DNA of 32,039 nucleotides from Streptosporangium minutum. GTDB taxonomy: Bacteria; Actinomycetota; Actinomycetes; Streptosporangiales; Streptosporangiaceae. The DNA lies in the NCBI RefSeq assembly GCF_002149035.1, contig NZ_NGFP01000091.1:1-32039 (forward strand), written 5' to 3'. The notes under the pieces were generated by a model. The model ran no database searches, had not been told where the DNA came from, and saw nothing but the letters and a program-made list of their open reading frames with translations. Positions 13,205 through 31,463 of this stretch are shown in pieces. The stretch's first letter is position 1. Each line of letters starts with the position of its first letter. A program made the position numbers and the translations under genes.

Positions 13205-13216
13205 CGTGGCTCCTCC
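13202..13216 (-). promoter_or_regulatory. Strong ribosome binding site before an ATC codon of dapD
   Basis: GGAGGAG occupies 13216-13210 on the minus strand, then CCACG, then ATC. No standard start codon occurs in frame for more than 60 codons upstream. The first residues downstream already align with the DapD N-terminus. This makes ATC the most plausible initiation codon. Confidence 0.55.
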
Positions 13217-13406
13217 GCTCCCACGCGAAAGCGGCTTCCCACCCCCCGGAGGGAGCGGCTTCCCGCTAGGCCGCAGGGCGTCGCGACGGACAAGCCCTGC
13301 CCGCAGAACGTGTGGAACGATAACAGAGCGCGACGGTCCGACTTCAAGATTCGACCGATAATTTCCGGCGGTTCTTCCCCTGCCAGGGACCGGTAGGTTC
13401 TTCAGG

Positions 13407-14896: not shown

Positions 14897-14907
14897 GCCG
14901 CGCGATC

Positions 14908-15987
14908 CTACTGGAGGCGGCGGACCGCCGCACTGATGCGTTCGTCACTCGCGGTCACGGCAATTCGGATATGTCCACTACCGGCTTCTCCGTAAAAATC
15001 GCCGGGTGCAACCAAAATCCCCTTATCGGCCAGTGCGCGCACCTGCTTCCAGCAGTCCGTGCCATTGGACGCCCACAGGTACAGGCCCGCGGTGGAGTGC
15101 TCGATCTCCCAGCCGGCCGCCTCCAGGGCGGGGCGGAGCACCGCCCGGCGGGCGGCGTAACGGGCGCGCTGCTCCTCGGCGTGCGCGTCGTCGTCCAGGG
15201 CCACGGCCATCGCCGCCTGGACCGGCGCCGGCATGAGCATGCCGGCGTGCTTGCGGACCTCCAGCAGTCGCCGGATCAGCGCGGGGTCGCCCGCGACGAA
15301 CCCGGCGCGGTAGCCCGCCAGGTTGGAGCGCTTGGACAGCGAGTGCACCGCGAGCAGGCCCTCGTGTGACCCGCCGCACACCTCCGGGTGCAGGATCGAG
15401 ACCGGCTGCTCCTCCCAGCCCAGCTCGATGTAGCACTCGTCGGAGGCCACGACCGCGCCGTGCTCGCGCGCCCACGAGACGACCTTGCGCAGGTGCTCGG
15501 CGGGCAGGACCTTGCCCGTCGGGTTGGACGGGGAGTTCACCCAGACCAGCGGCACCCGCTCGGGCCCGAGCGCCAGCAGCCCGTCGGTGGCGTACGGCTC
15601 GGCGCCCGCGAGGCGGGCTCCCACGTCGTAGGTGGGGTAGGCCAGCTCGGGGAAGATCACGCGCTGGCCGGAACCGATGCCGAGCAGCGTCGGCAGCCAG
15701 GCCACGAACTCCTTGGAGCCGATCAACGGCAGCACGTCCGCCTGGTCCAGGGTCACGCCGTGCCGGCGCCGCAGCCAGCCCGCGGCGGCGGAGCGGAGCC
15801 GCTCGGTGCCGTAGGTGAGCGGGTAGCCCGGACTGTCGGAGGCGTCCGCCAGCGCCTGCCGTACGACGGCCGGCACCGGGTCGACGGGCGTGCCGACCGA
15901 GAGGTCGACGATCCCGTCGGGGTGCGACTGCGCCAGCTCCTTAAGCGGCGTGAGCCGATCCCACGGGAAATCCGGCAGGCCGATCAC
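14908..15987 (-). CDS. dapC: Succinyldiaminopimelate transaminase (DapC-type, PLP-dependent)
   Basis: Aminotransferase converting N-succinyl-2-amino-6-ketopimelate to N-succinyl-DAP with glutamate. The 359-residue fold-type I PLP protein begins VIGLPDFPWDRLTPL. It contains DLSVGTPVDPVP, PLTYGTERLRSAAAGWL, the asparagine turn VNSPSNPTGK, DECYIELGW and the PLP lysine motif HSLSKRSNLAGYR. GTG at 15987 is chosen for GGGAG four bases upstream and because the family begins with this motif. It lies 116 bases after fdxA, as Rv1178 follows fdxC (Rv1177) in M. tuberculosis. Its association with dapD and dapE supports DapC over other class I aminotransferases. Confidence 0.9.
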   Translation of the reverse strand: MIGLPDFPWDRLTPLKELAQSHPDGIVDLSVGTPVDPVPAVVRQALADASDSPGYPLTYGTERLRSAAAGWLRRRHGVTLDQADVLPLIGSKEFVAWLPTLLGIGSGQRVIFPELAYPTYDVGARLAGAEPYATDGLLALGPERVPLVWVNSPSNPTGKVLPAEHLRKVVSWAREHGAVVASDECYIELGWEEQPVSILHPEVCGGSHEGLLAVHSLSKRSNLAGYRAGFVAGDPALIRRLLEVRKHAGMLMPAPVQAAMAVALDDDAHAEEQRARYAARRAVLRPALEAAGWEIEHSTAGLYLWASNGTDCWKQVRALADKGILVAPGDFYGEAGSGHIRIAVTASDERISAAVRRLQ

Positions 15988-16050
15988 AGCTCTCCCCACT
16001 AGGCATGTCCCCCACCGGGCCGGGAGGGAAAAGAGGTCTTCTCCGCGGAC

Positions 16051-16095
16051 GCCGCCGGGCGGGGACGGCGCGCTGCGCGCTCCCCGCCCGGCGGC
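16051..16095 (-). terminator. GC-rich hairpin between fdxA and dapC
   Basis: A perfect 14-bp inverted repeat, GCCGCCGGGCGGGG (16051-16064) and its complement (16082-16095), encloses 17 bases that include GCGCGCTGCGCGC. It begins 8 bases beyond the fdxA stop. It probably ends or attenuates the ferredoxin transcript before dapC. There is no U tract. Confidence 0.65.
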
Positions 16096-16103
16096 ACGGG
16101 CCG

Positions 16104-16430
16104 CTAGTGGCTCTCGGCCTGCGGGGGCAGGACCGCGACGACCGGGTGGTCCTTGTGGATCTTGCCGACCTTGGATGCGCCGCCGGGCGACCCGAGGTCT
16201 TCGAAGAAGTCCACGTTCGCCTTGTAGAAGTCCTTCCACTGGTCGGGAAGGTCGTCCTCGTAGAAGATCGCTTCAACGGGGCAGACGGGTTCGCACGCAC
16301 CGCAGTCCACGCACTCGTCAGGGTGGATGTAGAGCATGCGCTCGCCCTCGTAGATGCAATCGACGGGGCACTCCTCGATGCACGCCTTGTCCAGGACGTC
16401 CACGCAAGGCTGCGCGATGACGTAGGTCAC
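16104..16430 (-). CDS. fdxA: 7Fe ferredoxin ([3Fe-4S][4Fe-4S])
   Basis: A 108-residue soluble electron carrier. The cysteines are spaced as in Azotobacter-type 7Fe ferredoxins: C9, C17 and C50 suit the 3Fe-4S cluster; C21, C40, C43 and C46 the 4Fe-4S cluster; C25 is the usual free cysteine. The visible text is [20 protein letters not shown] and [15 protein letters not shown], followed by the acidic C-terminal extension of the family. GTG at 16430 is chosen because AAGGAG is six bases upstream and MTYVI is the family start; ATG 16463 would add a lysine-rich tail. The fdxA-dapC neighbourhood is conserved in actinobacteria. Redox partners are not evident locally. Confidence 0.95.
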
Positions 16431-16539
16431 CTCGGGCTCCTTCTTCTTTACGCACCTAGGCACGACTTCGACCGCGGGTTGCTACGCCCTAGTATTGCCG
16501 TGCCCGCCAAATGACTGAAACGGGAGGGGGCAAAAGACG

Positions 16540-16758
16540 GTGAACCCGGGCCTCGGCGCTCGCCTCAATATCACCATAACCCCTTCTGACGTGGGCAAAA
16601 GAGTAACCACACGACGACGGGTCCCAGAAGGGTTTCGCGACGCGGTGGGCGAGCTCGAATTCTGGCGGAACGGCGTGCTCGGCGTACGCAAACGCGACGG
16701 CACCCTGGTCGAGATCCCCCAGGAGACGCTCGCGGCGGCGAAGGTCGTCCCGGGCTGA
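16540..16758 (+). CDS. Small stand-alone SH3-like domain protein
   Basis: A 72-residue protein with a compact beta-barrel-like pattern: VGKRVTTRRRVPEG, DAVGELEFWRNGVLGVRKRD and VEIPQETLAAAKVVP. This block resembles the N-terminal domain placed before the GNAT domain in Rv0428c-type acetyltransferases, which also ends in AKxVP. Here the frame stops straight after it and no GNAT domain follows. It may therefore be a free-standing domain or a truncated gene. The GTG start at 16540 has GGGAGG about 11 bases upstream. It is divergent from fdxA. The function is unknown. Confidence 0.7.
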   Translation: MNPGLGARLNITITPSDVGKRVTTRRRVPEGFRDAVGELEFWRNGVLGVRKRDGTLVEIPQETLAAAKVVPG

Positions 16759-16849
16759 CCGCCCCGGTGCCCTCCAAAGGCATGCCGGGCGTAAGCCGTT
16801 CACCAAAAAAGGCCGCGCCTCCTCGATCCACCCGATCGTCGCATGGAGT

Positions 16850-17908
16850 ATGCGACGCGTGACCGTACGCATCAGTGCCGCCGCCGCCGTGATCCTCACC
16901 GCCACGATCGCCGGGTGCGGCGCCCCGGCTACTCCGAACAGACAACTCCCGCCGGTCAAGCCCCAGGCGGCCTCCTTGCAGGAGGGGTTCTCGACGATGG
17001 AGAACCTCGTCGAGACGGCCCGCAAGGAGGGCGCGCTCACCGTGGTCGGGCTGCCACGCGACTGGGTGAACTACGGCGAGATCATCGACGCCTTCTCCGA
17101 AGAGTACGGAATCAAGGTCGACCAGCTGGAGCCGGACGCGAGCAGCAAGCAGGAGATCGACTCCGCCGCCCGGCTCAAGCCCGACGTGTTCGACCTGAGC
17201 CTGGAGGTCGCGGTGGCCAACGCCGCCGCCTTCGCCCCGTACAAGGTGCAGAACTGGCAGGACATCCCCGACGACGTCAAGGACAACGCCGGGCGCTGGT
17301 ACGCCGGGTACGGGGGCTACATGTCCATCGGCTACGACCCCCGCAAGGTCGCGGCCCCCACCTCCTACGGCGACCTGCTCAAGCCCGGCTACAGCGTCGC
17401 GCTGCCCGGCGACCCGCGCCAGACCGCGGCGGCCTTCAACGCGGTGATGGCGGCCTCGCTCAGCCGCGGCGAGCCCCGGGCGAAGCGGGGCGTGGAGTTC
17501 TTCGAGCGCCTGAGGAAGGCGGGCAACTTCGCGGCGTCGGAGCGGACGGCCACGGCCGTCCTCGACTGGGACTACGACAACGCCGCGCGGTCGGGCTGGA
17601 AGGTCGCGATCCCGGGTGACGCGGTGCTCAGCTCGTACTACGTCCAGGCCGTCAGCAAGAACGCCCCGCACCCGGCCGCCGCCCGGCTGTGGCAGGAGTT
17701 CCTCTTCTCCGACCGGGGCCAGAACCTGTTCCTCAAGGGCTACGCCCGCCCGGCCCGGATGGAGGCCCTCCAGATGCGCGGCACGCTGGACAGAGAGCTC
17801 GCCGCCAAGCTTCCCGCCACGACCGCCACGCCGGTGATGCTGAACATCGCGGAGATCGACGCCGCCAAGGCATACCTCCACCGCGCGTGGAACGGAAAGA
17901 CCAGATAG
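16850..17908 (+). CDS. Solute-binding lipoprotein (ABC transporter, extracellular family 1-type)
   Basis: A 352-residue lipoprotein with a lipobox (TIAGC, Cys23) after a signal helix. It should sit on the outer face of the membrane and capture a solute. The mature part reads as a type II periplasmic-binding fold: ARKEGALTVVGLPRDWVNYG, FSEEYGIKVDQLEPDASSKQ, then GYMSIGYDPRK, SYGDLLKPGY and a C-terminal LWQEFLFSDRGQNLF. These suit iron(III)- or polyamine-type binders, but the ligand is not determined. No permease or ATPase gene is adjacent, so it must use components encoded elsewhere. ATG 16850 lies too close to GGAG; GTG 16859 is equally possible. Confidence 0.85.
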   Translation: MRRVTVRISAAAAVILTATIAGCGAPATPNRQLPPVKPQAASLQEGFSTMENLVETARKEGALTVVGLPRDWVNYGEIIDAFSEEYGIKVDQLEPDASSKQEIDSAARLKPDVFDLSLEVAVANAAAFAPYKVQNWQDIPDDVKDNAGRWYAGYGGYMSIGYDPRKVAAPTSYGDLLKPGYSVALPGDPRQTAAAFNAVMAASLSRGEPRAKRGVEFFERLRKAGNFAASERTATAVLDWDYDNAARSGWKVAIPGDAVLSSYYVQAVSKNAPHPAAARLWQEFLFSDRGQNLFLKGYARPARMEALQMRGTLDRELAAKLPATTATPVMLNIAEIDAAKAYLHRAWNGKTR

Positions 17909-17930
17909 GCCTGAGGCTGCTGGGACTGAC

Positions 17931-17942
17931 ATGTCGCGACAT
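17931..17942. promoter_or_regulatory. 12-bp perfect palindrome, possible operator
   Basis: ATGTCGCGACAT reads the same on both strands and lies in the 105-base gap before the methyltransferase gene. Its size and symmetry suit a dimeric regulator site. There is no second copy nearby and no assigned regulator, so the role is speculative. Confidence 0.3.
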
Positions 17943-18013
17943 CTCGGAGGCTCTAAAGTGTCTGGGGAGCACCGATAAGAGGCCGTGGCGTCTCAGAATG
18001 TGAGCTGATCGTC

Positions 18014-18790
18014 TTGCGATACGACGCCCCGAGCCCGACGAGGTGGAACGCTCGCTCCCATGACAGCGGCTTCGGATACGTTTCGGCACACGGCGCGCCC
18101 CTGGTCGAGCTGCTCGACCCCCAGCCAGGGGAGCGCGTCGTGGACCTCGGCTGCGGCACCGGGGTGCTGACCGCCGAGATCTCCTCCCGGGGGACCCGCG
18201 TCCTGGGGATCGACGGATCCCCGGCGATGATCGAGAAGGCCCTGGCGCAGTATCCGGGGCTGGACTTCATCGTCGGCGACGGCCGTGACTTCACGGTCGC
18301 CCAGCCGTACGACGCGGTCTTCTCCAACGCCGCCCTGCACTGGATGGGGCGCGAGCCGGACGCGGTGATATCCAGCGTGCGCGAGGCGCTGATCCCCGGC
18401 GGGCGGTTCGTGGCCGAGATGGGCGGCGCGGGCAACTGCGCCGCGCTGACGGCGGCGCTGTTCACCGCGTGGCGGGAGCACGGGCTGCGCGAGCCCGATC
18501 TCCCCTGGTACTTCCCGACTCCGGCCGAGTACGCCGCGCGGCTGGAGAAGGGCGGATTCGTCGTCCGCCTGCTGGAATACTTCGACCGGCCGACTCCGCT
18601 CGACGAATGCCCCAACGGAGCGGCGGACTGGGTGCGGATGTTCGCCGGATCGCTGCTCCAGGGAGTGCCCGCAGACCTGGTCGAATCGCTGCTGCGCCGG
18701 GTGAACGAGCTGGCCGCGCCCGCACTGCGCCGGGAGACCGGTTGGATGGCCGACTACGTGCGGCTCCGGTTCGCAGCCGTACGCCGCTGA
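18014..18790 (+). CDS. Class I SAM-dependent methyltransferase (trans-aconitate methyltransferase-like)
   Basis: A 258-residue small-molecule methyltransferase. SAM motif I is VVDLGCGTGVLTAEI (from residue 42), followed by GTRVLGIDGSPAMIEKA, DFIVGDGRDFTV, AVFSNAALHWM and ALIPGGRFVAEMGG, the usual order for Methyltransf_11/25 proteins. The WNARSHDSGFGYVSAHGAPL opening and the HWM motif resemble trans-aconitate methyltransferase relatives; the substrate is unknown. TTG 18014 is the first start and has only a weak ribosome site. It precedes the helicase cassette by 111 bases on the same strand and may or may not belong to it. Confidence 0.85.
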   Translation: MRYDAPSPTRWNARSHDSGFGYVSAHGAPLVELLDPQPGERVVDLGCGTGVLTAEISSRGTRVLGIDGSPAMIEKALAQYPGLDFIVGDGRDFTVAQPYDAVFSNAALHWMGREPDAVISSVREALIPGGRFVAEMGGAGNCAALTAALFTAWREHGLREPDLPWYFPTPAEYAARLEKGGFVVRLLEYFDRPTPLDECPNGAADWVRMFAGSLLQGVPADLVESLLRRVNELAAPALRRETGWMADYVRLRFAAVRR

Positions 18791-18818
18791 CAAGACCCGA
18801 TGCGCCAGGGCGATTTGC

Positions 18819-18832
18819 CAGACTATGGTCTG
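18819..18832. promoter_or_regulatory. Dyad upstream of the helicase cassette
   Basis: CAGAC-TATG-GTCTG is a 5-bp inverted repeat around a TATGGT that fits the TANNNT -10 consensus. It lies about 70 bases before the first cassette gene. It could be the cassette promoter with an overlapping operator. No good -35 was seen. Low certainty. Confidence 0.3.
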
Positions 18833-18901
18833 TTCCATGAGTCTCGTTCCCCGGCGACGTGGAGTGACTCGGGCGGCTTGAGGGGCTGGTGAAGGGAACG
18901 G

Positions 18902-21217
18902 ATGAACTTCTGTCTGAGTGACCTCGTGCCGCCGCTGCGCTGGAGCGACGCGGCCACGATCCCACTCCTGCGCGACCAGCCCGACCTCCCGGACGCCTGG
19001 TGGCGCAGCCTGCCGATGGCCCGGGTGCTCGCCGTGCTGGACCCGGACGAGCTGGCCGAGATCCTCGCCCGGATCGCCCTGGAGCACTGGCCGGCCGCCG
19101 CTCTGGGCGACGTGCTCCCCGCCCTGTACGTCCTGGATCCCGACGAGGCCGACGAACCCTGTACGGCCATCGCCCTCGACCGTACCGGCTCCTGGTCCGG
19201 CCTCCTCTCCCTCACCGGCCACGAGCTGCGCGACCAGCCCTTCATCCAGCCCTTCCCCGTGCTGAACGTCCTGTTCTCGGCGGTCTTCCACCGGTTGACC
19301 CACCCCGGTGCCGGCTCCGGCTCCGGCTTCCCCGCGATGGCGCCCGCCACGGCCGGCTCCAGGACCGGGACCGAGGAGGTGGCCGTGGACCGCGATCGCC
19401 CGGCCGCCAACGGGGCGGGAGCGCGCGAGGCGGCCTTCGGGCTCGCGGCCGCGGCCGCCGCCGTCGCGGCGCGTCCGGAGACGCCGGCGCAGGCCGCCGT
19501 GCCGGGGGCCGTCGTGAACGGGTCCGAGGCGCCGTTCCGGGCTGCGCCGGAGCGGCCGGACGCCGCTCCCGCCGCCGCCGAGGCTCTGTACGCGCGGCCG
19601 GACGCCGCTCCCGCCGAGGCCGGGGCACCGCCGGAGCTCCCGCGCGACGCCGGAGCCGGGCCCGCGGCGCCGGGGAGCGACGCGGACCGCCCCGGGCCCG
19701 CCGGGGCGGCCCCGGCCGGGTCCCGCCCGGAGACCGGCACCGGACCGGAACCGGGCCCGGGAACCGATCCCCGGGACGACCCGCAGGACGGCCCGGGAGA
19801 CGGCCCCGAGCACGCCTCCGCCGGCCCGGAGCCCCTGCCCGGCCCGGAGCCCCTGCCCGGCCCGGACCCCGGCCCGGACCCTGGTGCGGCGCCGGCCGCG
19901 TCCGTACCGGCCGCACGGGCCGCGCTGGAGGCCGAGGCGACGGACGGCGCGGAGGAGGCCGGGCGGCCCGCCGAGAGCGTTCACGCGCTGGTGGACGGCG
20001 CCTTCGCCAACCTGGAGGACAAGAGCTGGGCCATCGCGCAGAACAGGCTGTTCAGCGACGAACCGGCGACCGTGGAGGCGCTGGCCAAGCTCTTCGCGGT
20101 GCAGCCCGAGGTGATCCGCGAGCTGGAGGGCGACCTGCGCCTGCGGTTCAACGCATGGCTCGGCTCGGAGGAGGCCGCGCCGTACCGGGAGCATCTGGCC
20201 GAGGTCAAGCGGGTCCTCGGCAAGGCCGCGCCCAAGGCGCGCCTGATCACGGCCGCCGACTGGCACTCCCTCGAGCTCCACTCCCTCGACGTGCCCGCCT
20301 GGCAGTTCGTGCTGGCCAGCCTCCCCGAGTACCACCTGGTCGACGAGTGGCTGGTGGAGGGTGACATCGCCGAGCTGCGGCACCACACGCGTGACGTGAT
20401 CAGCGGCGCCAAGCCGCCGCTGACGATGACGAAGGCCCTCGCCCTGGTCACCTCCCTCGGCATCCACCCCGATGTCTCGAAGGAGTGGCTGGAGAACGTC
20501 CCCCAGCTCCGCATCCTGGGGGCCGGCCAGCGACCACCCCAGCGGGTGAACGGCTCGGCGGCCAAGGCCAAGGGGTCCGAGCGGACCAAGAGCGCCGACA
20601 GGGCCGAGAAGACCGAGAAGGCGGAGAAGGCGGAGCGCGCCGGGAAGACCGAGGGGCCGGCCGCCGGCGCCCGCGGCGGGGAGCCGGGCAAGAGCCCGTT
20701 CCGGCCGCTCAAGGACGTCTCGCTGACCCGGCGCTGCTTCCGGCAGCCGGACGGCCGGTGGTGGCTCAGGATCGACGTCACCCCCGAGCACATCCAGGGA
20801 GCCGAGTGCCCGCTGCCCAGCGGGTTCGCCGCCTACCTCGGCATGTCGCCCGGCGGCAGCCGTACGGTCAACAGCGCGGTGGGCGAGCTCACCCTGAGCT
20901 GGCAGGAGCGGCCCGTGGTGGAGTCGCTCAGGACGCTCCTCACGGACGTGGGCGCCAAGCAGGGGAGCTACCTGTTCCTGACGCTGTCCGACGAGGGGGT
21001 GCTGCGTGCCAGGCACCTGCCGGCCGCGGGCAAGGGGGTCGAGGCGACGGCGCAGGCGCTGCGGCTGGTCGGCTACACCGCGCCGGGCGGCACCCCGGAG
21101 CAGGCCGGCCGGGTCATCGCCACCCGGGTCGGCATGACGGGCCAGGTGAGCATGCCCGACCTCCTCAGCCGGCTGCGAGAGCGCGGGGACCGCGACCTGC
21201 TGTCCCTGCTGGCCTAG
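18902..21217 (+). CDS. Helicase-cassette protein A: paralogue with decayed sigma-4-like HTH and long disordered inserts
   Basis: A 771-residue protein of unknown function. Residues 1-130 (MNFCLSDLVPPLRW, LPDAWWRSL, LGDVLPALYVLD) match the N-terminus of the 615-residue protein encoded at 23328. Residues ~134-357 are Ala/Pro/Gly-rich and disordered. Residues ~358-420 correspond to the partner's sigma-70 region-4 segment, but the DNA-reading motif is changed to VQPEVIRELEGDL. A domain with HSLELHSLDVPAWQFVLASL follows, then a Lys/Glu/Ala linker (~554-586) where the partner has winged helices. Residues ~600-771 match the partner's C-terminal domain (TRRCFRQPDGRWWLRIDV, GFAAYLGMSPGG, LVGYTAP). ATG 18902 has GAAGGGA four bases upstream. 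The helicase starts three bases after the stop. A structural or adaptor role is plausible but unproven. Confidence 0.75.
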   Translation: MNFCLSDLVPPLRWSDAATIPLLRDQPDLPDAWWRSLPMARVLAVLDPDELAEILARIALEHWPAAALGDVLPALYVLDPDEADEPCTAIALDRTGSWSGLLSLTGHELRDQPFIQPFPVLNVLFSAVFHRLTHPGAGSGSGFPAMAPATAGSRTGTEEVAVDRDRPAANGAGAREAAFGLAAAAAAVAARPETPAQAAVPGAVVNGSEAPFRAAPERPDAAPAAAEALYARPDAAPAEAGAPPELPRDAGAGPAAPGSDADRPGPAGAAPAGSRPETGTGPEPGPGTDPRDDPQDGPGDGPEHASAGPEPLPGPEPLPGPDPGPDPGAAPAASVPAARAALEAEATDGAEEAGRPAESVHALVDGAFANLEDKSWAIAQNRLFSDEPATVEALAKLFAVQPEVIRELEGDLRLRFNAWLGSEEAAPYREHLAEVKRVLGKAAPKARLITAADWHSLELHSLDVPAWQFVLASLPEYHLVDEWLVEGDIAELRHHTRDVISGAKPPLTMTKALALVTSLGIHPDVSKEWLENVPQLRILGAGQRPPQRVNGSAAKAKGSERTKSADRAEKTEKAEKAERAGKTEGPAAGARGGEPGKSPFRPLKDVSLTRRCFRQPDGRWWLRIDVTPEHIQGAECPLPSGFAAYLGMSPGGSRTVNSAVGELTLSWQERPVVESLRTLLTDVGAKQGSYLFLTLSDEGVLRARHLPAAGKGVEATAQALRLVGYTAPGGTPEQAGRVIATRVGMTGQVSMPDLLSRLRERGDRDLLSLLA

Positions 21218-21220
21218 CCG

Positions 21221-23278
21221 ATGCCCCGAATCGCGATCTCCCCGGAGTTCCCCGCGGAACTCGCCGCCCTGGCCCAGCCGGTGCGCCGTGACGCCGTCGT
21301 CGCGGTGCGCCGGTTCATGCAGAACGTGGCGGGCGCGCCGCACCCCGAGCGGGTCAGGGGGGCCAGGGACCCCCGGACCGTCACCCTCCGGCTGGGCGAG
21401 GGCCACCGCGGCGTCGTGGTCAAGCAGCGGGACGTCTACTGGCTGCTGACCGTGCTGCCGGACGCCGAGGCGTGGGCCTACGCACGGCGGTACCGGTTCG
21501 GCGTCAACACCGCGCTGGGCGTGATCGAGACGTGGGACGCCGAGGCGCTCGACCGGGTGGAGCCCGCCGTACGCAGGGCGGCCGAGTCCTCCCCGGCGCG
21601 GCTGTTCGCCGACACCTGCGACACCGACCTGGCCGAACTGGGGATCGACAGGCGGTTCCTGCCGCTCGCCCGGCAGATCACCGACGAGCTGATCCTGGAG
21701 GCGCTGGCGCCGCTGCTGCCCCCGACGCAGTACGCGCCGCTGGCCGCGCTGGCCAGGGGCGAGTCGATGACCGGGGCCTGGCGGGAACTGGAGGCCTGCC
21801 GCGCGGTCGCCGCCACCGGGGACCCGGTCGACCCCGAGGACTTCGCCGCCGCGCTCCTGCGCAGCCCGGACCGGGCCGTCTTCGTCGGCAGCCCGCGCGA
21901 GCTGAACCACGTGCTCGACGCGCCCGGCTGGTGCGTGTTCCTGCACCCGCCGCAGCACCGGCTGGCCCGCTGGGAGTCCTACGAGCAGCCGATGCTGGTC
22001 ACCGGCGGCGCGGGCACCGGCAAGACCCTCGTCGCCCTCCAGCGCTCGGCCTTCCTGGCCGGGCGCGCCACCGGCCAGGTCCTGCTCGTCACCTTCTCCC
22101 AGGGGCTGAGCGCCGACCTCGCCGCCCGGCTCGACCTGCTGATCGAGGACGAGGCGGCACGCAAGCGGGTCGAGGTCGGCAACGTCGACCGGCTGGCCCA
22201 CCGCATCGTCTCCGAGTTCGAGGCGCGCTCGCCCGCGCTGGCCGGCGCCGCCGAGATGACCGAGCTCTGGCGGGAGACGGAGAGCGGCCACAGCCCGGCG
22301 TTCCTGCTGCGCGAGTGGGAGCAGGTGGTGCTGGCGCAGAACCTCCGGACCCTGGAGGAGTATCTGAGCGCCCCGCGTCCCGGCCGCAGCGTCGAGCTCA
22401 CGGCCCCGGAGCGGACCGCGGTCTGGCGGGCCGTCGAGCACGTCACCGGGGAGCTGCGGGAGCGCGGCAGGCGCACCCTGCTCCAGCTGGCGGCCGAGGC
22501 GTCGCTGCTCCTGGGCCAGACGACGGGCGACCTGCTGGAGGAGACGGCGCCCAGGCGGGAGCCGTACCGGCACATCGTGGTGGACGAGGCGCAGGACCTG
22601 CACCCCGCGCAGTGGCGGCTGCTGCGCGCGGCGGTGCCGCACGCCCGCGACGACCTGTTCATCGTGGGCGACCCGCACCAGCGCATCTTCGACACGCGGG
22701 TCACACTGAGCTCCGTGGGAATCGACGCGATCCAGCGCCGACTTCAGGTGTCATACCGGCTTCCTCAGGAGATCCTCTCCTGGGGGGTACGGCTGCGCGG
22801 GGGCGGGCCCGCCGACGGACTGGTGAAGGGGGTCCAGGAACTGTACGGCTTCCACGCCACCCGGCACGGGCACCGTCCGATGGTCCGAGCCTACGATTCA
22901 CCGGAGGAAGAGCTGACCGGTCTGGTCGCACAAGTGGGACAGTGGGTGGAGGACGGCGTGCCGCCGCACGAGATCGGGGTGGCCGCCAGGACCTCCGGCC
23001 TCGTGCGCGATGCCCGGTCCGCCCTGCGCGAGTTGGGGGTGAGAGTGACGACGTTGCACGGCATGAAGGGACTGGAGTTCCGGCGGGTCGCCGTGATCGG
23101 CGTGGCCGACGGGATCGTGCCGTCCCCGGAGTCGCTGACTCCCGCCGGTGAGGATCCCTCGGCCCGGGCACACGACCTCCAGCGTGAGCGCGGCCTGCTG
23201 TACGTGGCCTGCACCCGGGCGAGGGAGCTGCTCTATGTCTCCTACTCCGGGCGAGCCAGTCCCTTTCTTCCCACCTGA
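21221..23278 (+). CDS. UvrD/Rep-like superfamily 1 helicase with N-terminal RelE/ParE-like domain
   Basis: A 685-residue protein. Residues 1-100 (FPAELAALAQPVRRDAVVAV, RTVTLRLGEGHRGVVVKQRD, AYARRYRFGVN) follow the strand/helix pattern of RelE/ParE toxins. The SF1 core then carries Walker A GGAGTGKT (262-269), DEAQD (455-459), IVGDPHQRIF (481-490), VSYR (510-513), HGMKGLEF (613-620) and YVACTRARE (661-669), so the ATPase looks intact. It is shorter than UvrD, with little 1B/2B insertion. It starts three bases after gene A's stop with no ribosome site, implying translational coupling. The function is probably unwinding or remodelling of DNA or DNA-RNA. Whether the RelE-like part cuts RNA, binds ribosomes or only docks is unknown; catalytic residues could not be assigned. 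Confidence 0.9.
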   Translation: MPRIAISPEFPAELAALAQPVRRDAVVAVRRFMQNVAGAPHPERVRGARDPRTVTLRLGEGHRGVVVKQRDVYWLLTVLPDAEAWAYARRYRFGVNTALGVIETWDAEALDRVEPAVRRAAESSPARLFADTCDTDLAELGIDRRFLPLARQITDELILEALAPLLPPTQYAPLAALARGESMTGAWRELEACRAVAATGDPVDPEDFAAALLRSPDRAVFVGSPRELNHVLDAPGWCVFLHPPQHRLARWESYEQPMLVTGGAGTGKTLVALQRSAFLAGRATGQVLLVTFSQGLSADLAARLDLLIEDEAARKRVEVGNVDRLAHRIVSEFEARSPALAGAAEMTELWRETESGHSPAFLLREWEQVVLAQNLRTLEEYLSAPRPGRSVELTAPERTAVWRAVEHVTGELRERGRRTLLQLAAEASLLLGQTTGDLLEETAPRREPYRHIVVDEAQDLHPAQWRLLRAAVPHARDDLFIVGDPHQRIFDTRVTLSSVGIDAIQRRLQVSYRLPQEILSWGVRLRGGGPADGLVKGVQELYGFHATRHGHRPMVRAYDSPEEELTGLVAQVGQWVEDGVPPHEIGVAARTSGLVRDARSALRELGVRVTTLHGMKGLEFRRVAVIGVADGIVPSPESLTPAGEDPSARAHDLQRERGLLYVACTRARELLYVSYSGRASPFLPT

Positions 23279-23327
23279 TCACATACTCTGAACTGCGGAT
23301 ATATTCCCCTTTGCCGGTTGGACCTCA

Positions 23328-25175
23328 ATGAACCTCAGCCTGAGCGACATCGCGCCACCCCTGCGCTGGACCTCTCCCGGCCAGGTAGCGCCGATCGCAA
23401 CCGACCCCCGTCTCCCAGAGGCGTGGTGGCAGGCACTTACGCTGGACCGGGCCTGCTCCACCATCGGGACCTCAGAGGTCGCCGGACGTCTCGCCGATCT
23501 CGCCCTGGCGTGCTGGGGTCATCTGATGCTCGGCGACATCCTGCCCCTGCTCAGGTTCGCCGACCCGGCGGAGAGTGTCCGCACCCCCGAGGGGCTCGGC
23601 CGGGAAGTGGTGCACAAGCTGTTCACCGGCGTGCTGGAGCGGCTGCTCGAGCCCGTCACCGAGGAGAGCGTCGCCCAGGTCCGTCCCTCCCGGCCGGACC
23701 GGCCGCTGCCCGAGCTGATCGACGAGGTCTTCGCCACCCTGGACGAGCGCCAGCGGGCCATCGCCAGGGACCGCCTCTACGCCTCGCAGCGGGCCACGCT
23801 CGACGACCTGGCCCAGCGGTTCTCGGTGACCAGGGAACGCATCCGGCAGATCGAGCGCGACCTGCGCGACCACGTCGAGGCCTGGCTGGCGAGTGAGGAC
23901 GCCGCGCCGCTGGTCGCCCACGTCTCCTGGCTGCGGGGCCGGCTCGGCTCCGCGGTGCCGGCCGACGACCTGGCCGCGGCGGTGCCGTGGCACCGCACCG
24001 ACATGGCCACCCTGGGCATCCCGGCCTGGCGGTTCGTGCGGACCCTGCTGAGCGGTTACGACCAGGTGGACGGCTGGCTGGTGGCGGGCGGCGCCGACGA
24101 GCTGCGGGAGAAGACCCGGCAGCTCTTCACCGACGGGCCGCGTCCCCTCGACGAGGCCGTCACGCTGGTCAGCCAGCTCGGGATCCGCGAGGACGTGGCC
24201 GAGCGGTGGCTCATCGCCGTGCCCCAGCTCCGGGTCCTCGAAGGCCACGTGGTGCCCTGGCCGCGCAGCGTCAACGACAAGGCCGAGGCCGTGCTCGCGG
24301 TGGCCGGGAACGCGCTGACCCCCGAGGAGATCCAGGAGCGCATCGGCGAGGACTACAGCCTCGTCGGCATCCGCAACCAGCTCACCGCCGACGACCGGTT
24401 CCTGCGGCTGGACCGCAACAAGTACGGGCTGTCCCGCTGGGGCGGCGAGCAGTACCTGGGCATCAGGGAGATGATCGTCCGGGAGATCGAGCGGTCCAAC
24501 GGCGAGGCGTCGGTCAACACGATCGTGACGAACCTCACCGCGCGCTACGACGTGAGCGAGAGCTCGGTCCGCGCCTACGCGGGCGGGCCCGGCTTCGAGC
24601 GCACGCAGCGCGGGTGGATCCGGGTCGCCGGGGCCGAGCAGGCCGACTACCAGCCCCGCCGCGACGTCTCGGCGACCCGCCGCTGCTTCCGCAGCCGTGA
24701 CGGGCGCTGGTGGCACCGGGTGGACGTCAACGCCGAGCACCTGCGCGGTTCGGGCTCCCCCCTGCCCACCGGCTTCGCCGCGCACCTGGGCATGGCCCCC
24801 GGCGGCCAGCTCACCGCCTCCACCCCGTCCGGCGACGTGGTGATCAGCTGGCACAACCAGCCGACCATGGGGTCCATCCGGCCGATCCTGGTCGCCTCCA
24901 ACGCCTCCGAGGGCGACCACGTCTTCCTGACGGTCTCCGACGGCGGCGAGCTGCTGACCCGTTACCTCCCCGCCGCGTCCCCGGGCCTTCCGGCCCTGAA
25001 CCGGGCCCTCTACCTGATCGGCTACACCGCGCCGGTCGCCTCCGAGGCCGAGGGCCTCCGCCTGATCGGCGCCCGGATCGGCCTCGCCGACGGCTGCACC
25101 CGCGAGGAGGTCATCGCCCGCCTGCGCGACCGCGGCGACCGCGAGATCCTCGCCTTCCTGGAGGGTTCCGGCTGA
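23328..25175 (+). CDS. Helicase-cassette protein B: sigma-70 region-4-like and HARE-like HTH protein
   Basis: A 615-residue protein. Residues 1-120 are shared with protein A (MNLSLSDIAPPLRW, LPEAWWQAL). Residues ~125-190 form a sigma-70 region-4-like HTH, with LDDLAQRFSVTRERIRQIER at ~158-177; RERIRQIE is the classic -35 recognition helix of primary sigma factors. Residues ~315-375 (AGNALTPEEIQERIG, IRNQLTADDRFLRLDRNKYG, LSRWG) look like a HARE-HTH winged helix, followed by a second helical unit to ~440. Residues ~455-615 are the C-terminal domain shared with A (TRRCFRSRDGRWWHRVDV, LIGYTAP). No sigma region 2 exists, so it is not a sigma factor. ATG 23328 lacks a ribosome site; TATATT at about 23301 may be its own -10. 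The cysS-like gene follows after 18 bases. Confidence 0.85.
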   Translation: MNLSLSDIAPPLRWTSPGQVAPIATDPRLPEAWWQALTLDRACSTIGTSEVAGRLADLALACWGHLMLGDILPLLRFADPAESVRTPEGLGREVVHKLFTGVLERLLEPVTEESVAQVRPSRPDRPLPELIDEVFATLDERQRAIARDRLYASQRATLDDLAQRFSVTRERIRQIERDLRDHVEAWLASEDAAPLVAHVSWLRGRLGSAVPADDLAAAVPWHRTDMATLGIPAWRFVRTLLSGYDQVDGWLVAGGADELREKTRQLFTDGPRPLDEAVTLVSQLGIREDVAERWLIAVPQLRVLEGHVVPWPRSVNDKAEAVLAVAGNALTPEEIQERIGEDYSLVGIRNQLTADDRFLRLDRNKYGLSRWGGEQYLGIREMIVREIERSNGEASVNTIVTNLTARYDVSESSVRAYAGGPGFERTQRGWIRVAGAEQADYQPRRDVSATRRCFRSRDGRWWHRVDVNAEHLRGSGSPLPTGFAAHLGMAPGGQLTASTPSGDVVISWHNQPTMGSIRPILVASNASEGDHVFLTVSDGGELLTRYLPAASPGLPALNRALYLIGYTAPVASEAEGLRLIGARIGLADGCTREEVIARLRDRGDREILAFLEGSG

Positions 25176-25193
25176 GGAGAATGGGGTCGAGGC

Positions 25194-26573
25194 ATGCTAC
25201 GGCTGTATGACACACGGAACCGCCAGGTCGGACCGGTCCTCCCCGAAGGGGCCCGGTCCATGCGGATGTACACCTGCGGGCCCACCGTCTACCGCTACGC
25301 CCATGTCGGCAATTTCCGGTCGTACGTGCTGGCGGACCTGATCAGGCGGGTCAGCGAGCGGCAGCGGATCCGGGTGGTCGCCTGCCGGAACATCACCGAC
25401 GTCGGGCATCTGGTGGACGACGCCGAGATCGACCCCGGCGGTGAGGACAAGATCCTGCTCCAGGCGCGGGCCGAGGGGCGGACCGGGCTGGAGGTCGCGC
25501 GGTTCTACGAGGCGGCCTTCCTGTCCGACACCGCCACGCTGAACATCCGGCCGCCCGAGCACTCCCCCAGGGCCACCGAGACGATCGACCTCATGATCGA
25601 GATGATCGCCAAGCTGATCGAGAAGGGGCACGCCTACCCGACCCCCGACGGGTCGGTCTTCTTCGACGCGGCCTCCTTCCCGACCTACGGCGAGATCTCC
25701 GGCAACCGGCTCGACCGGCTGAAGCCCGGCCACCGGCTCGAAGGCGTCGACCCCCGCAAGCGGTTCCACGCCGACTGGGCCCTGTGGAAGCCCTCGGACC
25801 GCGAGATGACCTGGGAGACTCCCTGGGGCCGCGGCTTCCCCGGCTGGCATATCGAGTGCTCGGCCATGTCGCTGCGGTTCCTCGGCGAGCACATCGACGT
25901 GCACACCGGCGGCATCGACCTGCGCTTCCCGCACCACGAGGACGAGCGCGCCCAGTCCGACGCCACCGCCGGCCACGAGGTGGTCAGGCACTGGGTCCAC
26001 GGGGAGCACCTGCTGTTCGACGGGCGCAAGATGGCCAAGTCCACCGGCAACGTGGTGCTGCTCCAGGACGTGGTGGACGCGGGCCTGGATCCGCTGGCCG
26101 TACGGCTGGCGCTGCTGGAGCACCGCTACCGCCAGCAGATGAACCTCACCTGGGACACGCTCCGGGCCGCCGACAGGACCCTGCGGCGCTGGCGCTCCCG
26201 CGTCGCCGAGTGGTCGGAGACGCCGAGCCGCCCGATGCCCGCCGAGCGGGTCGCGCGGATCGAGGCCGCCTTCGACGACGACCTCGACACCCCGCTGGCC
26301 CTGCGCCTCCTGCGGGAGCTGGAACGCGACGACTCGATCGCGCCCGGCTCCCGGTTCGAGGCGTTCCTGCACCTGGACCAGATCCTCGGGCTGGACCTGT
26401 CGGCCGACATCGGCAGAGCCAGGAGCCTGCCGCCGGGCGCCGCCGAGCTGCTGGAGCGGCGCCTGCGGGCACGCGACGCCAGGGACTGGGCCGTCTCCGA
26501 CCGCCTCCGCGACGAGCTGGCCGCCCTGGGCGTGCAGGTGGCCGACACCCCCGAGGGCCAGACCTGGTCGTAG
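25194..26573 (+). CDS. cysS: Cysteinyl-tRNA synthetase, divergent second type
   Basis: A 459-residue class I synthetase joining cysteine to tRNA-Cys. Zinc ligands are present: C28 in YTCGPTVY, C222 in GWHIECSAM, and H248/E251 in FPHHEDE. The first signature is HVGN (37-40) in place of HIGH. The second is KMAKS (279-283) with STGN following. The C-terminal helical and anticodon regions are complete (DLDTPLALRLL, RDWAVSDRLRDEL). HxGN-type CysS proteins occur in several non-actinobacterial groups, so transfer is possible. Actinomycetes normally carry a housekeeping cysS and the related mshC elsewhere. This one lacks the MshC-type opening (CGITPYDATHLGHA) and is more likely a tRNA synthetase. GAGGAG lies about 15 bases before the ATG, and the gene follows the cassette closely. 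Confidence 0.88.
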   Translation: MLRLYDTRNRQVGPVLPEGARSMRMYTCGPTVYRYAHVGNFRSYVLADLIRRVSERQRIRVVACRNITDVGHLVDDAEIDPGGEDKILLQARAEGRTGLEVARFYEAAFLSDTATLNIRPPEHSPRATETIDLMIEMIAKLIEKGHAYPTPDGSVFFDAASFPTYGEISGNRLDRLKPGHRLEGVDPRKRFHADWALWKPSDREMTWETPWGRGFPGWHIECSAMSLRFLGEHIDVHTGGIDLRFPHHEDERAQSDATAGHEVVRHWVHGEHLLFDGRKMAKSTGNVVLLQDVVDAGLDPLAVRLALLEHRYRQQMNLTWDTLRAADRTLRRWRSRVAEWSETPSRPMPAERVARIEAAFDDDLDTPLALRLLRELERDDSIAPGSRFEAFLHLDQILGLDLSADIGRARSLPPGAAELLERRLRARDARDWAVSDRLRDELAALGVQVADTPEGQTWS

Positions 26574-26712
26574 TCCCCGCCCCGGCGGCCGCGTCCCTCC
26601 CGTTCCGCGGGCGGACGCCGGCCTCGCCGATCCAGCATGGAATGGTCATGTTTCGGCAGGGCGTAGGGGCGGATCGCGCTTAATGTCGGTGGCGGCCGAT
26701 ACCGTCCCGATC

Positions 26713-27192
26713 ATGAGCGAGACTGGCGTTGTCGTACGGCCTGCCACGGTTGCGGATCTGGAGGGGGTAGTGGCCTGCAGTTCCGCGCTGTTCGCCGAGG
26801 ACGCCGGAGCCCGTGACCTCACCCTCGACCTGGGCTGGCCCACGGAGCACGGCCCGGCCTGGTTCGCCGGAGCGCTGGACGACCCCGACCGCCTGGTGAT
26901 GGTCGCCGAGGCCGGCGGCCGGATCGTCGGCCACCTGTCCGGCCGGCTGTCCGGGCCCACCTCGATGCGGCCGGTCACGGTGGCGACGCTGGGCAGCATC
27001 TACGTGCGGCCCGCCCACCGCGGCCGGAAGATCGGGGCCGATCTGGTGGAGGAGTTCAGGGCGTGGGCCCGCCGCCGCGGGGCGCGGTACGCCGGGGTGA
27101 CGGCGTACGCGAGCAACGAGGCGGCCGTGCGTTTCTACGAGCGCAACGGCTTCGCCACGCGGTCGGTGGTGCTGGAGACCGCGCTGCAGTAG
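26713..27192 (+). CDS. GNAT family N-acetyltransferase
   Basis: A 159-residue acyl-CoA-dependent acetyltransferase. The GNAT landmarks are VVRPATVADLEGVVACS, the strand LGSIYVRPAHRGRKIG (acetyl-CoA loop RGRKIG), and the closing TAYASNEAAVRFYERNGFAT. The substrate is unknown. ATG 26713 is preferred over ATG 26683 because a TACCGT -10 element ends seven bases before it, the spacing of a leaderless transcript, and because the family starts near this residue. Neither ATG has a ribosome site. It converges on the RraA-like gene across a repeat-filled gap. Confidence 0.88.
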   Translation: MSETGVVVRPATVADLEGVVACSSALFAEDAGARDLTLDLGWPTEHGPAWFAGALDDPDRLVMVAEAGGRIVGHLSGRLSGPTSMRPVTVATLGSIYVRPAHRGRKIGADLVEEFRAWARRRGARYAGVTAYASNEAAVRFYERNGFATRSVVLETALQ

Positions 27193-27241
27193 TCCTCGGC
27201 CCGTGTACGCCCGGACACCACGCCCGGCAACCGTCGGCCGC

Positions 27242-27355
27242 GACGCGGGGCTCAAGGCAGGGCGCGCGGGCTCAGGTAGAGCGCGCGGGCTCAGAGCAGG
27301 ACGCGGGGGGCTAAGGGCAGGACGCGGGGGGCTCAGAACAGGGCGCGGGGGCTGA
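27242..27355. repeat. Five to six 20-21-bp repeats derived from the end of the rraA-like gene
   Basis: Units near 27242-27260, 27261-27280, 27281-27300, 27301-27321, 27322-27342 and 27343-27355 share a CGCGGGGGGCTCAG-like core. Read on the minus strand, each resembles the last codons of the RraA-like gene (Pro-Arg-Ala-Leu-Phe-stop). The array starts inside that gene and extends past its stop, suggesting tandem duplication of a gene end. Copies differ at several positions. Confidence 0.8.
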
Positions 27356-27812
27356 CGACGAGGCCGTCCTCGTCGCTGTAGAGCCATGCGCCCGGGACGA
27401 AGGTGACCTCGCCGAAGGTGACAGGGACGTCGAGGTCGCCGGCGCCCTCCTTGGCGCTCTTGCGGGGGTTGGAACCGAGGGCCTTGACCCCCAGGTCCAG
27501 ACCGCCCAGGGCGACCGTGTCGCGGACGGCCCCGTTGACGACGACGCCGGACCAGCCGGACGAGACGGCGGAGGCGGCGATCAGGTCGCCCATCAGGGCG
27601 GTGCGCAGGGAACCCGCGCCGTCCACGACCAGCACGCGTCCCCCGCCCGGCGTGGCCAGGACCTGCTTGACCAGGGCGTTGTCCTCCAGGCAGCGGATGG
27701 TCGCGATCGGCCCGGCGAAGCGCGGGCGCAGGCCGTACGAGCGGAACTGCGTCAGGCAGCTGTCGAGGACGTCGCCGTGGGCGTCGATGAGATCGGCGGT
27801 CGTGAACTCCAT
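27333..27812 (-). CDS. RraA family protein (RNase E regulator / HMG-oxaloacetate aldolase-like)
   Basis: A 159-residue protein of the RraA fold, a compact trimer. Members either inhibit RNase E or act as 4-hydroxy-4-methyl-2-oxoglutarate aldolase/oxaloacetate decarboxylase. The characteristic strings are [53 protein letters not shown] and [17 protein letters not shown]. They align with E. coli RraA along its length. ATG 27812 gives the family N-terminus (MEFTTADL); ATG 27821 is three codons earlier. No ribosome site was seen. Sequence alone cannot decide between the RNase and aldolase roles. The final codons are part of a tandem repeat. Confidence 0.9.
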
Positions 27813-27898
27813 GCGTCGCATTCTGACGAACGCGGAATCGGCGTTTCGCCTCCGGGGTGCTGCCAAACTTGTTCGAGCACGTCGCATAGGAGGTCTTT

Positions 27899-30466
27899 GT
27901 GAGGTTCCGGCCGTATGCCTGGATGCCCCGGCCGTTCACGTGGCTCGCACGGGCGTTCACCGTCCTCGTGGTGCTCGGGCTGGTTCTCGCCGGGGTGGGC
28001 GTGTGGACGGTGCGCGCCTCCTTCCCGCAGCTCGCGGGCGAGCTCAAGGTAGACGGCCTAACCGGAAAAGTCACCGTATATCGCGACAAAACAGGTATTC
28101 CACATATCTACGCGGACTCTTCCGATGACCTGTTCCTCGCCCAGGGATACGTACACGCCCAGGACCGGTTCTTCGAGATGGACTTCCGCCGGCACGTGAC
28201 GGCCGGGCGGCTGTCGGAGATGTTCGGCTCCGCGACGCTCGTCGAGGACAAGGTCATCCGAACCATGGGCTGGCGCAAAGTCGCCGAGGCCGAGCTGCCG
28301 ATGCTCACCGAGCAGACCCGGCACCACCTCGACGCCTACGCCAAGGGCGTGAACTCCTGGATGGACCAGCACGAGGGCTTCACCGCCAAGAGCCTGGAGT
28401 ACGCGGTCCTCAAGCTCACCAACTTCGGCTACGAACCCGAACCGTGGACTCCGGTGGACTCCCTGTCCTGGCTCAAGGCCATGGCCTGGGATCTGCGCTC
28501 CAACATGTCCGACGAGATCGGCCGGGCGCTCGCGGCGAGCAGGCTGCCCCGCGAGCGGGTCGAACAGCTCTGGCCCGGCTACCCCTTCGACACCCACCAG
28601 CCGATCGTCACCCAGGGGTCGGTCACCCGGCGCGGCTTCGACCAGGACACCGAGCCCGGCGCGGACACCGACCAGGTGGACACCGGAACCGGACGGCCGG
28701 ACACGGGCGCGCTGACCCGGGCGGCCGAGGCCCTGCGGGCGGTGCCGAGCCTGATGGGCGACCCCAAGGGCGGCAACGGCATCGGCTCGAACTCCTGGGT
28801 GGTCGGCGGCAGGCACACCGGCTCGGGCAAGCCGCTGCTCGCCAACGACCCGCACCTGTCGGCGAACATGCCCTCGGTCTGGTACCAGGCCGGGCTGCAC
28901 TGCCGTACCAAGAGCGCCGAATGCCCGTTCGACGTCACCGGGTTCACCTTCTCCGGGGTGCCCGGCGTGATCATCGGGCACAACGACAAGATCGCCTGGG
29001 GCTTCACCAACCTCGGCCCGGACGTCGCCGACCTGTATCTGGAGCGGGTGAAGGACGACTCCTACCTGTTCATGGGCGACTGGAAGCCGCTCACCACCAG
29101 GACCGAGACGATCAAGGTCGCGGGAGGCGACCCGGTCCGGCTCACGGTCCGGGAGACCATGCACGGCCCGATCCTCTCCGACGTCATGGAGAACGTGAAG
29201 GACACCCTGCCCGGCGCGGCGACGGCCTTCCAGGAGAAGGCCGACGCGGTCGCGCTGAAGTGGACGGCGCTGGAGCCCGGCAGGAGCGCCGACGCGATCT
29301 TCGCCCTCGACGCCGCGCAGGACTGGCAGGAGTTCCGGGCGGCGGCGAGCAGGTTCGACGTGCCCGCGCAGAACCTGGTCTACGCCGACACCAAGGGCAA
29401 CATCGGCTACCAGGCGCCTGGCCGGATCCCGGTGCGGACCCGGGGCGACGGCACCTGGCCGGTGCCGGGCTGGACCGGCGAGTACTCCTGGCAGTCGACC
29501 ATCCCCTTCAACGAGCTGCCCAGCGTCTACAACCCGCCCGAGGGCTACATCGTGACCGCCAACAACGCGGCCATCGACCCCGAGCGCTACCCGCACATGC
29601 TCACCAAGGACTGGGCGTACGGCTACCGCTCCCAGCGCATCCTGGACCGCCTCCAGACCGAGCTGAAGAAGGGCAAGGTCGACGCGGAGACGATGGGCGA
29701 GGTGCAGCAGGACACCCACAACGGCTTCGCCCAGTTTCTGGTGCCCAAGCTGATGGCCCTCAAGGTCGCCGGGTCCTCCGGAGACGCCCGTGAGCTGCTG
29801 CGCACCTGGGACTACTCCCAGGGCGCGGGGTCGAGCCCGGCGATGTACTTCAACGCCGTCTGGCGGCACCTGCTCATCGAGACCTTCAACGACGACCTGC
29901 CGGAGAGCGCCTGGCCGACCGGCGGCGACCGCTGGTTCGAGGTGGTCCGCGTCATGCTCGACAACCCCGGCGACCCGTTCTGGGACGACGCGCGGACCTC
30001 GGGGACGGAGACCCGCGACGACATGCTGCGGCGGGCCATGGCCCTGGCCTACGACGAGCTGAACGCCCGCCTCGGCCCGGACGTCAAGGCCTGGCGCTGG
30101 GGCGACCTGCACTCGCTGACGCTCACCAACCAGACCTTCGGCACCTCCGGGATCGGCCCGGTCGAGTGGCTGTTCAACCGGGGCCCGTTCCCGGTGAGCG
30201 GCAACGACGACGCGGTCAACGCCGCGGGCTGGGACGTCCAGGAGGGCTACGCCGTGGGCTGGCTGCCGTCCATGCGGATGGTGGTCGACCTGGCGGACCT
30301 GGACAGGTCCCAGTGGATCAACCTGACCGGCGCGTCGGGCCACGCCTTCCACGACAACTACTGGGACCAGGCCCCGCTCTGGGCGGATGGGAGGACCACC
30401 CCCATGCTCGCCCGGGAGGAGTCGATCAAGAAGGCCGCCAGGAACACCCTGGTCCTCAGGCCTTGA
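27899..30466 (+). CDS. Penicillin acylase family Ntn hydrolase, membrane-anchored
   Basis: An 855-residue amidase precursor of the penicillin G / AHL / aculeacin acylase family, self-cleaved into two chains. A membrane or signal helix (residues ~20-41, [15 protein letters not shown]) places it outside the membrane. The alpha chain shows [37 protein letters not shown] and GRLSEMFG. An acidic spacer ([20 protein letters not shown]) precedes the cleavage site G296|S297 in [12 protein letters not shown]297 should be the nucleophile, supported by LANDPHL and, later, [18 protein letters not shown]. The GTG at 27899 has AGGAGGT four bases upstream. The substrate could be beta-lactams, acyl-homoserine lactones or lipopeptides. 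It overlaps the convergent hydrolase by 11 bases. Confidence 0.92.
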
Positions 30467-31427: not shown

Positions 31428-31463
31428 GGACTCCCCCTTTAACAGGTATTCGCCCCCATGAAC

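Follow-up and report, generated by a model that had tools for sequence, protein, structure and literature searches.

A three-gene unit in which a UvrD-type helicase gene (H) lies between two paralogous, DNA-reader-like genes (A and B) is conserved in a large part of the Streptosporangiaceae, and we tentatively read A-H-B as a reader-plus-motor module of defense origin that became fixed as an operon and is most likely still acting on invading DNA. In the analyzed stretch of 32,039 nucleotides (the window), all three genes lie on the + strand with the coordinates and lengths claimed by an earlier, sequence-only reading of this DNA: gene A at 18902-21217 (771 aa), gene H at 21221-23278 (685 aa) and gene B at 23328-25175 (615 aa). 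Its statement that gene A and the helicase are three bases apart was likewise borne out by the coordinates, and H and B are separated by 49 bases. Gene A encodes an N-terminal domain, a long variable low-complexity linker, a sigma4/HTH-like middle and a C-terminal domain common with B; H combines a probable RelE/ParE-like N-terminus with an ArmD-like UvrD/SF1 helicase; and B starts with an N-terminal domain, continues with sigma region 4 and winged-HTH/HARE-like modules, and ends in a beta domain with a probable B3/LlaJI-like fold. A literature search returned no recognized description of this trio.

Conservation and inheritance of the A-H-B unit

The order A-H-B was found in 80 of 80 loci (the 80 retrieved of 125 loci that were confirmed by scanning genome contigs with B), three of which (L026, L050 and L051) are represented by stretches that begin inside A. 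The genera named in the titles of these loci are ones that we take to be Streptosporangiaceae (one title reads [Actinomadura] parvosata). The B profile (E 1e-10) had matches in 199 and the H N-terminal profile (E 1e-20) in 212 of 297 genomes of the order; among the matches listed, H lay 1.86-2.24 kb upstream, in the same orientation, for 122 of 126 near-full-length B genes. The idea of a single system had been made to depend on co-occurrence of the three genes in this order, and both counts agree with it. Four of the 126 B genes were without an adjacent H: in G592 and G678 H lies on another contig and in G627 it runs into the contig end, while G519 (L181, 4973-7201) has B at 74% identity with only about 100 C-terminal residues of H and no A, which may reflect natural loss or an assembly fault. 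The remaining 73 of the 199 genomes contained either a more distant B-like gene (6) or weaker matches only (67), and in G601 a single A-type gene was observed near CysS-like and penicillin-amidase-like genes, with no H or B there. Because these 73 genomes, G519 and G601 differ, the claim that the three genes form a conserved unit holds for a large part of the Streptosporangiaceae, where the trio is fixed, and not for all of the family. Six genomes fetched from other genera of the family (g239, g241, g252 and g253, perhaps Actinomadura and kin) have an A-like gene that is not accompanied by H or B and whose surroundings are common to them; their H-like genes, where any were identified, are located at other sites.

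Mean pairwise identities across 75 sequences were 81.6% for B, 68.2% for H and 70.5% for the C-terminal 180 residues of A, compared to 83.2% and 80.4% for two flanking genes. Evolutionary distances were correlated most strongly between H and B (r 0.91), with the other nine pairs ranging from 0.71 to 0.88 (75 of 81 sequences; B of L024 and L026 and A of L026, L050 and L051 were left out). These correlated distances of A, H, B and their flanks fit vertical co-inheritance. All 16 genomes of the window's genus among the matches listed have the trio with H adjacent, and A-H-B, being vertically inherited, does not look like a patchy defense island. Further afield, the B profile matched 7 of 396 genomes of the phylum and the H N-terminal profile 8 of 296, the window's own genome being included in both. 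Of 72,556 plasmid records, 16 had a B match at E 1e-8 (including an 11.85 Mb Nonomuraea record), and a phage origin of B was rejected on the basis of 0 matches in 50,697 phage records.

The surroundings of the trio are also stable, with a methyltransferase-like gene (77/80 loci), a CysS-like gene (77/80) and an aminotransferase-like gene (75/80) kept nearby. In the window, the CysS-like gene lies directly downstream of B at 25194-26573. A scan of 10 flanking ORFs (12374-31844) identified no nuclease, DNA methylase, other ARMADA, Pbe or McrBC gene.

Helicase H and its RelE/ParE-like front end

H was identified as an SF1 UvrD-type helicase by Pfam (E 9.7e-21), and at least 95% of 81 aligned helicases retain each of its motifs GTGKT, DEAQD, GDPHQR, KGLEF and VACTRA, which confirms the earlier description of the middle gene as a motif-complete SF1 helicase. 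The Walker A motif GGAGTGKTL (22004-22030, + strand) and the Walker B/motif II segment VDEAQDLHPAQ (22580-22612, + strand) contain residues K268 and D455, respectively, both of which are invariant in 18 rows. Among the 81 aligned proteins, 35 short ones, mostly from Nonomuraea, lack a 72-residue stretch that lies between motifs (residues 343-414 of the window's H) and retain the motifs themselves. The best PADLOC match of H was GajB of Gabija (E 1.4e-30), and matches to HelD/HelR in NCBIfam (E 6.7e-17 to 7.5e-11) were far below their cut-offs.

The RelE/ParE-like assignment of residues 1-105 (21221-21535, + strand) comes from reading the topology of a structure model that is partly poor (mean pLDDT 69.1) and is weak by sequence. 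Foldseek returned no RelE or ParE protein among the 50 matches listed for the H model. When 25 H N-termini were analyzed using Pfam, three weak ParE_like matches (best E 0.11) and one ParE_toxin match (E 0.14) were obtained, and individual N-termini had better scores with unrelated families (DUF3022, E 0.0028). Compared with eight ParE proteins, the H N-terminal profile reached a probability of 7.7% over 33 columns (40 column shuffles, at most 2.45%), and it gave 0 matches up to E 10 against 177,635 distinct PDB sequences. The front end claimed by the sequence-only reading rests on our reading of the model topology and on the published description of ArmD, is weak or absent in the sequence comparisons and does not show in the Foldseek list; we consider a RelE/ParE-like fold likely.

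Paralogy and domain composition of A and B

BLASTP aligned A and B as paralogues (E 7e-50) in three blocks of 40-42% identity: residues 1-83 (41%), A355-553 with B122-319 (42%), and some 175 residues at the C-terminus, within an alignment of 232 columns (40%). The outer genes had been described as sharing an N-terminal domain of ~120 residues and a C-terminal domain of ~165 residues, with their paralogy named beforehand as a point on which the system idea could fall; the paralogy stands, and three common blocks replace the two. In gene A, the middle block (residues 355-553; 19964-20560, + strand) is homologous to the sigma4/HTH region of B and the C-terminal block (residues 592-771; 20675-21214, + strand) to the C-terminus of B. 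No Pfam match above cut-off was obtained for A, and a weak NCBIfam RpoH match at residues 357-409 (E 3.2e-4) is below its cut-off. A third A/B paralogue is found in the same genome (L089; G000, C189, 10629-12347; a 572 aa ORF), where, by our reading of the ORFs, it adjoins PfkB-like and pseudouridine-5'-phosphate glycosidase-like genes.

The sigma-region-4 and HARE-HTH modules named by the sequence-only reading fared differently. Among A, H and B, Sigma70_r4 was matched above the Pfam cut-off in B only (residues 135-178; 23730-23861, + strand; E 3.2e-7), whereas HARE-HTH was listed, again for B only, below its cut-off (residues 314-371; 24267-24440, + strand; PF05066, E 0.01, 16.7 bits vs a cut-off of 25.9). 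Alignment of B proteins placed a sigma 4.2-type recognition helix, TRERIRQIE, at residues 168-176 (23829-23855, + strand), and it is invariant in 79 of 79 aligned B proteins. These residues presumably correspond to those that read the -35 element in sigma-70. The sigma4/HTH-like middle of A has not kept this helix, which is absent from all of the 12 commonest A variants listed. Among B relatives outside the trio, it is exact in L100, near in L101, L169 and L176, and less so in L103, and a pattern search gave no match in eight others. B was rejected as a sigma factor, having region 4 only, with no sigma region 2 or 3 listed by Pfam.

The structure model of B (mean pLDDT 77.9, pTM 0.43) is composed of helical HTH-type modules and a C-terminal beta domain, the packing of these domains being unsure given the pTM. 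Foldseek returned no match at E 0.001 or better for this model; the top two matches were to a UFL1-DDRGK1 chimera (E 1.3e-3), which is not a B3 protein, followed by the N-domain of LlaJI.R1 (6c5d, E 0.027) and then by plant B3 domains and sigma region 4 structures. Matches to LlaJI.R1 and plant B3 domains had E values of 0.027-0.3 and probabilities of mostly 0.9-1.0. Together with the strand order of the model, they suggest a probable B3/EcoRII-N-like pseudobarrel at residues about 450-550 (24675-24977, + strand), which we infer to be the B3 match because the Foldseek answer gives no aligned range. The C-terminal domain of B is therefore probably B3-like as modeled. According to the accessible part of the published account, LlaJI.R1 binds DNA site-specifically through its B3 domain (PMC7680126).

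Conserved non-coding elements

Upstream of A, within TTTGCCAGACTATGGTCTG, lies a conserved 19 bp palindromic element, CAGAC-TATG-GTCTG (18814-18832, + strand). Scanning for the best + strand site in the 80 loci, with a motif drawn from the same sequences, gave 0 mismatches in 29 loci, 1 in 42, 2 in 2, 3 in 2, 4 in 1 and 6 in 1 (L051), with no site at up to 6 mismatches in 3. The element is therefore present with at most 4 mismatches in 76 of 80 loci, the other four being the three that begin inside A (L026, L050 and L051) and L028, which is without it. With as many as 3 mismatches allowed, its first 18 bases fit a single site in the window's genome of 9.58 Mb, and the reversed control fits none. 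When 15 paralogue or divergent loci were scanned with up to 5 mismatches allowed, 14 were without the element, including the divergent A-H-B locus L145, and L146 had one site with 5 mismatches. No canonical TTGAC-N17-20-TAnnnT promoter was found at the element in the 80 upstream stretches, and the palindrome may be an operator or part of a promoter.

The gap between H and B (23278-23327) is also conserved and contains a promoter-like site (23278-23305, + strand) that overlaps a conserved element at 23287-23304, suggesting a separate promoter for B. The 18-mer of this gap occurs once without mismatch in the window's genome and at four more places with 3 mismatches (control, 0). From its sequence, B may thus have its own promoter.

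Relatives of H and B outside the trio

The genomic surroundings of H homologues were assessed in 22 other loci (L113, L114 and L118-L137), which were hand-picked and fetched with 8-20 kb each. No A or B match was found beside H in any of the 22. McrBC was present in 4 loci, and a clear N6-methylase in L113 and 6 more (with one weak match in L136). In 8 loci there was a member of a gene cluster obtained by single linkage, from which two members were scanned, both of them protein kinases. Overall, 12 of the 22 loci contained McrBC, an N6-methylase or a member of the kinase cluster and 10 were without, L136 with its weak match being counted among the latter. In the helicase tree, from which L127 and L132 were left out, the A-H-B helicases (12 of 34 rows) form one clade (100/100), and many homologues lie by McrBC, methylase or kinase genes; group labels were assigned by hand with 9 of 34 rows unlabeled, and the root and two long plasmid rows are uncertain. 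On a Haematobacter plasmid, the H homologue is preceded by genes for an N-6 DNA methylase and a DEAD/DEAH helicase, and in Aulosira it is preceded by two very large hypothetical genes, surroundings that we read as ARMADA-like.

For B, 15 outside loci with relatives were available, with plasmid contexts covering 9 of 16 records. PbeA or a homologue lies immediately downstream of the B relative in 3 of the 15, L100 (PADLOC) and L104 and L176 (both by similarity to it), and the B relatives of L100 and L104 lie in Pbe/Dnd-type loci. On two Microbacterium chocolatum plasmids (L169 and L177), which count as one event since they are near-identical plasmids of one strain, the B relative is flanked by annotated UvrD-helicase/3'-5' exonuclease genes on one side and a DUF4011 gene on the other, a gene set that is possibly an unnamed defense cluster. 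A PD-(D/E)XK nuclease gene was also observed on one of these plasmids. In 10 of the 15 loci, no helicase was directly beside the B relative in what was annotated or scanned, and in L171 a helicase-related gene lies about 7 kb away.

Relation to described systems

The sequence-only reading knew of no described system with this composition; this does not hold for the helicase, as a UvrD helicase with a RelE-like N-terminus has been published as ArmD of ARMADA Type II (PMC12458937, bioRxiv 2025). According to the accessible part of that account, mutation of ArmD Walker A abolished ARMADA defense and mutation of Walker B reduced it, and the Walker residues K266 and D454 of ArmD are the counterparts of K268 and D455 in H. 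Of the RelE-UvrD hallmark, the UvrD part of H is matched by Pfam, and the RelE-like front is suggested by model topology but weak or absent by sequence. H differs from ArmD in lying between two paralogous DNA-reader-like genes and in being vertically inherited. Membership in ARMADA Type II was rejected, as BrxHII-like ArmA, PglX-like ArmB and YprA-like ArmC are absent from the 10 flanking ORFs.

Likeness to Gabija consists of the PADLOC match of H to GajB. GajB is not known to have a RelE-like front end, and Gabija membership was rejected since none of the 10 flanking ORFs is GajA-like and A and B do not match GajA. Likeness to LlaJI/McrBC consists of the LlaJI.R1 N-domain among the Foldseek matches of B and of McrB/McrC near some H homologues, and membership was likewise rejected, with no McrB GTPase or McrC nuclease match in A, H, B or the 10 flanking ORFs. 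The same ORFs and genes contained no HKD-SF2 PbeA, CxC ABC ATPase or DndE, so that PbeABCD/Dnd membership was rejected even though three B relatives directly precede PbeA or its homologue; the accessible part of the account of PbeABCD/CxC-DndE mentions no B-like protein (PMC10853773). Finally, B resembles MzaA and sigma-70 in its region 4, with an MzaA NCBIfam match (E 4.3e-9) below its cut-off, and differs in that the match spans about 50 residues, with no sigma region 2 or 3 listed.

Possible roles of the module

The reader-plus-motor idea stands because the trio is a conserved unit, A and B are paralogues, and relatives of its parts occur in restriction and defense settings. We infer that A-H-B was assembled from components of restriction and anti-phage systems and then became established as one operon across a large part of the Streptosporangiaceae. 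B, and probably also A as a possible partner, would bind particular DNA via the B3-like C-terminal domain and the HTH modules, with B alone keeping the sigma-type helix for reading -35 elements. The two readers, presumably in a physical complex with the ArmD-like helicase, would place H on the bound DNA, where it would translocate, and its RelE-like front end could serve for docking or as an effector with RNase activity. The present job of the module would most likely be permanently installed defense, with invading DNA as its putative target. Counted for this reading, which we hold as a tentative preference, are the near-fixed gene order, the correlated distances of H and B, an H clade among homologues many of which are defense-linked, the ArmD architecture known from Walker-dependent ARMADA defense, the B relatives by PbeA and by UvrD-helicase/exonuclease genes, and the LlaJI.R1/B3 matches of B. 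Against it count the vertical inheritance and the slow evolution of B, which keeps pace with its neighbors, unlike typical patchy defense genes; the flanking ORFs free of nuclease, methylase, ARMADA, Pbe and McrBC genes; the occurrence of H homologues without A/B elsewhere and the persistence of B in G519, where A and most of H are missing (perhaps through an assembly fault); the weak Foldseek matches of B and weak sequence relation to RelE; and the B relatives that have no adjacent helicase.

Inheritance with the chromosome would be expected if a defense-derived module now served its host, e.g., by clearing stalled RNA polymerase or by settling conflicts between transcription and replication. 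B would then use sigma region 4 to read -35-like promoter DNA or the polymerase flap and to bring H there. The conservation of B at the level of its neighbors, the identical recognition helix in every aligned B, the sigma region 4 structures among the Foldseek matches and the distant resemblance of H to HelD/HelR, helicases of a type that acts on RNA polymerase, are all in line with such domestication. Nevertheless, H groups with many defense-linked homologues and has the architecture of ArmD, GajB is a better match for it than HelD, and the A variants listed are without the recognition helix, and we regard domestication, the main rival, as somewhat unlikely. It is improbable that A and B are transcription regulators with H an unrelated helicase carried along in the operon. 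B has HTH modules, as less clearly does A, A-like genes stand without adjacent H or B in other genera where H copies lie elsewhere or were not found, and B may have its own promoter; set against this are the near-fixed order and spacing and the helicase-nuclease genes that adjoin B relatives in other lineages. It is very improbable that the three genes stay together as the neutral remnant of an old insertion into a stable part of the chromosome, where flanking genes are likewise kept nearby, in view of the motifs kept in H and the strong conservation of B and of the operon-specific upstream element.

A bolder proposal, which we consider somewhat unlikely, is that a lineage of DNA-reader genes took up an anti-phage helicase in a single event and made it part of a fixed chromosomal machine, in which B, through its intact sigma-4 recognition helix and B3-like domain, marks promoters or other self DNA and steers the RelE-UvrD motor there. 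If true, this would represent a bacterial immune motor domesticated into transcription or genome maintenance. A-H-B connects the RelE-UvrD helicases, described only recently, with a family of DNA-reader-like proteins whose genes neighbor PbeA as well, and it offers a natural series for separating the functions of the parts, from an A-like gene alone through A-H-B to B without A and most of H. Overall, the trio appears to be a case of defense parts turned into a vertically inherited operon in the Streptosporangiaceae, and raises the question of whether such parts still act against invaders or now work for the host.
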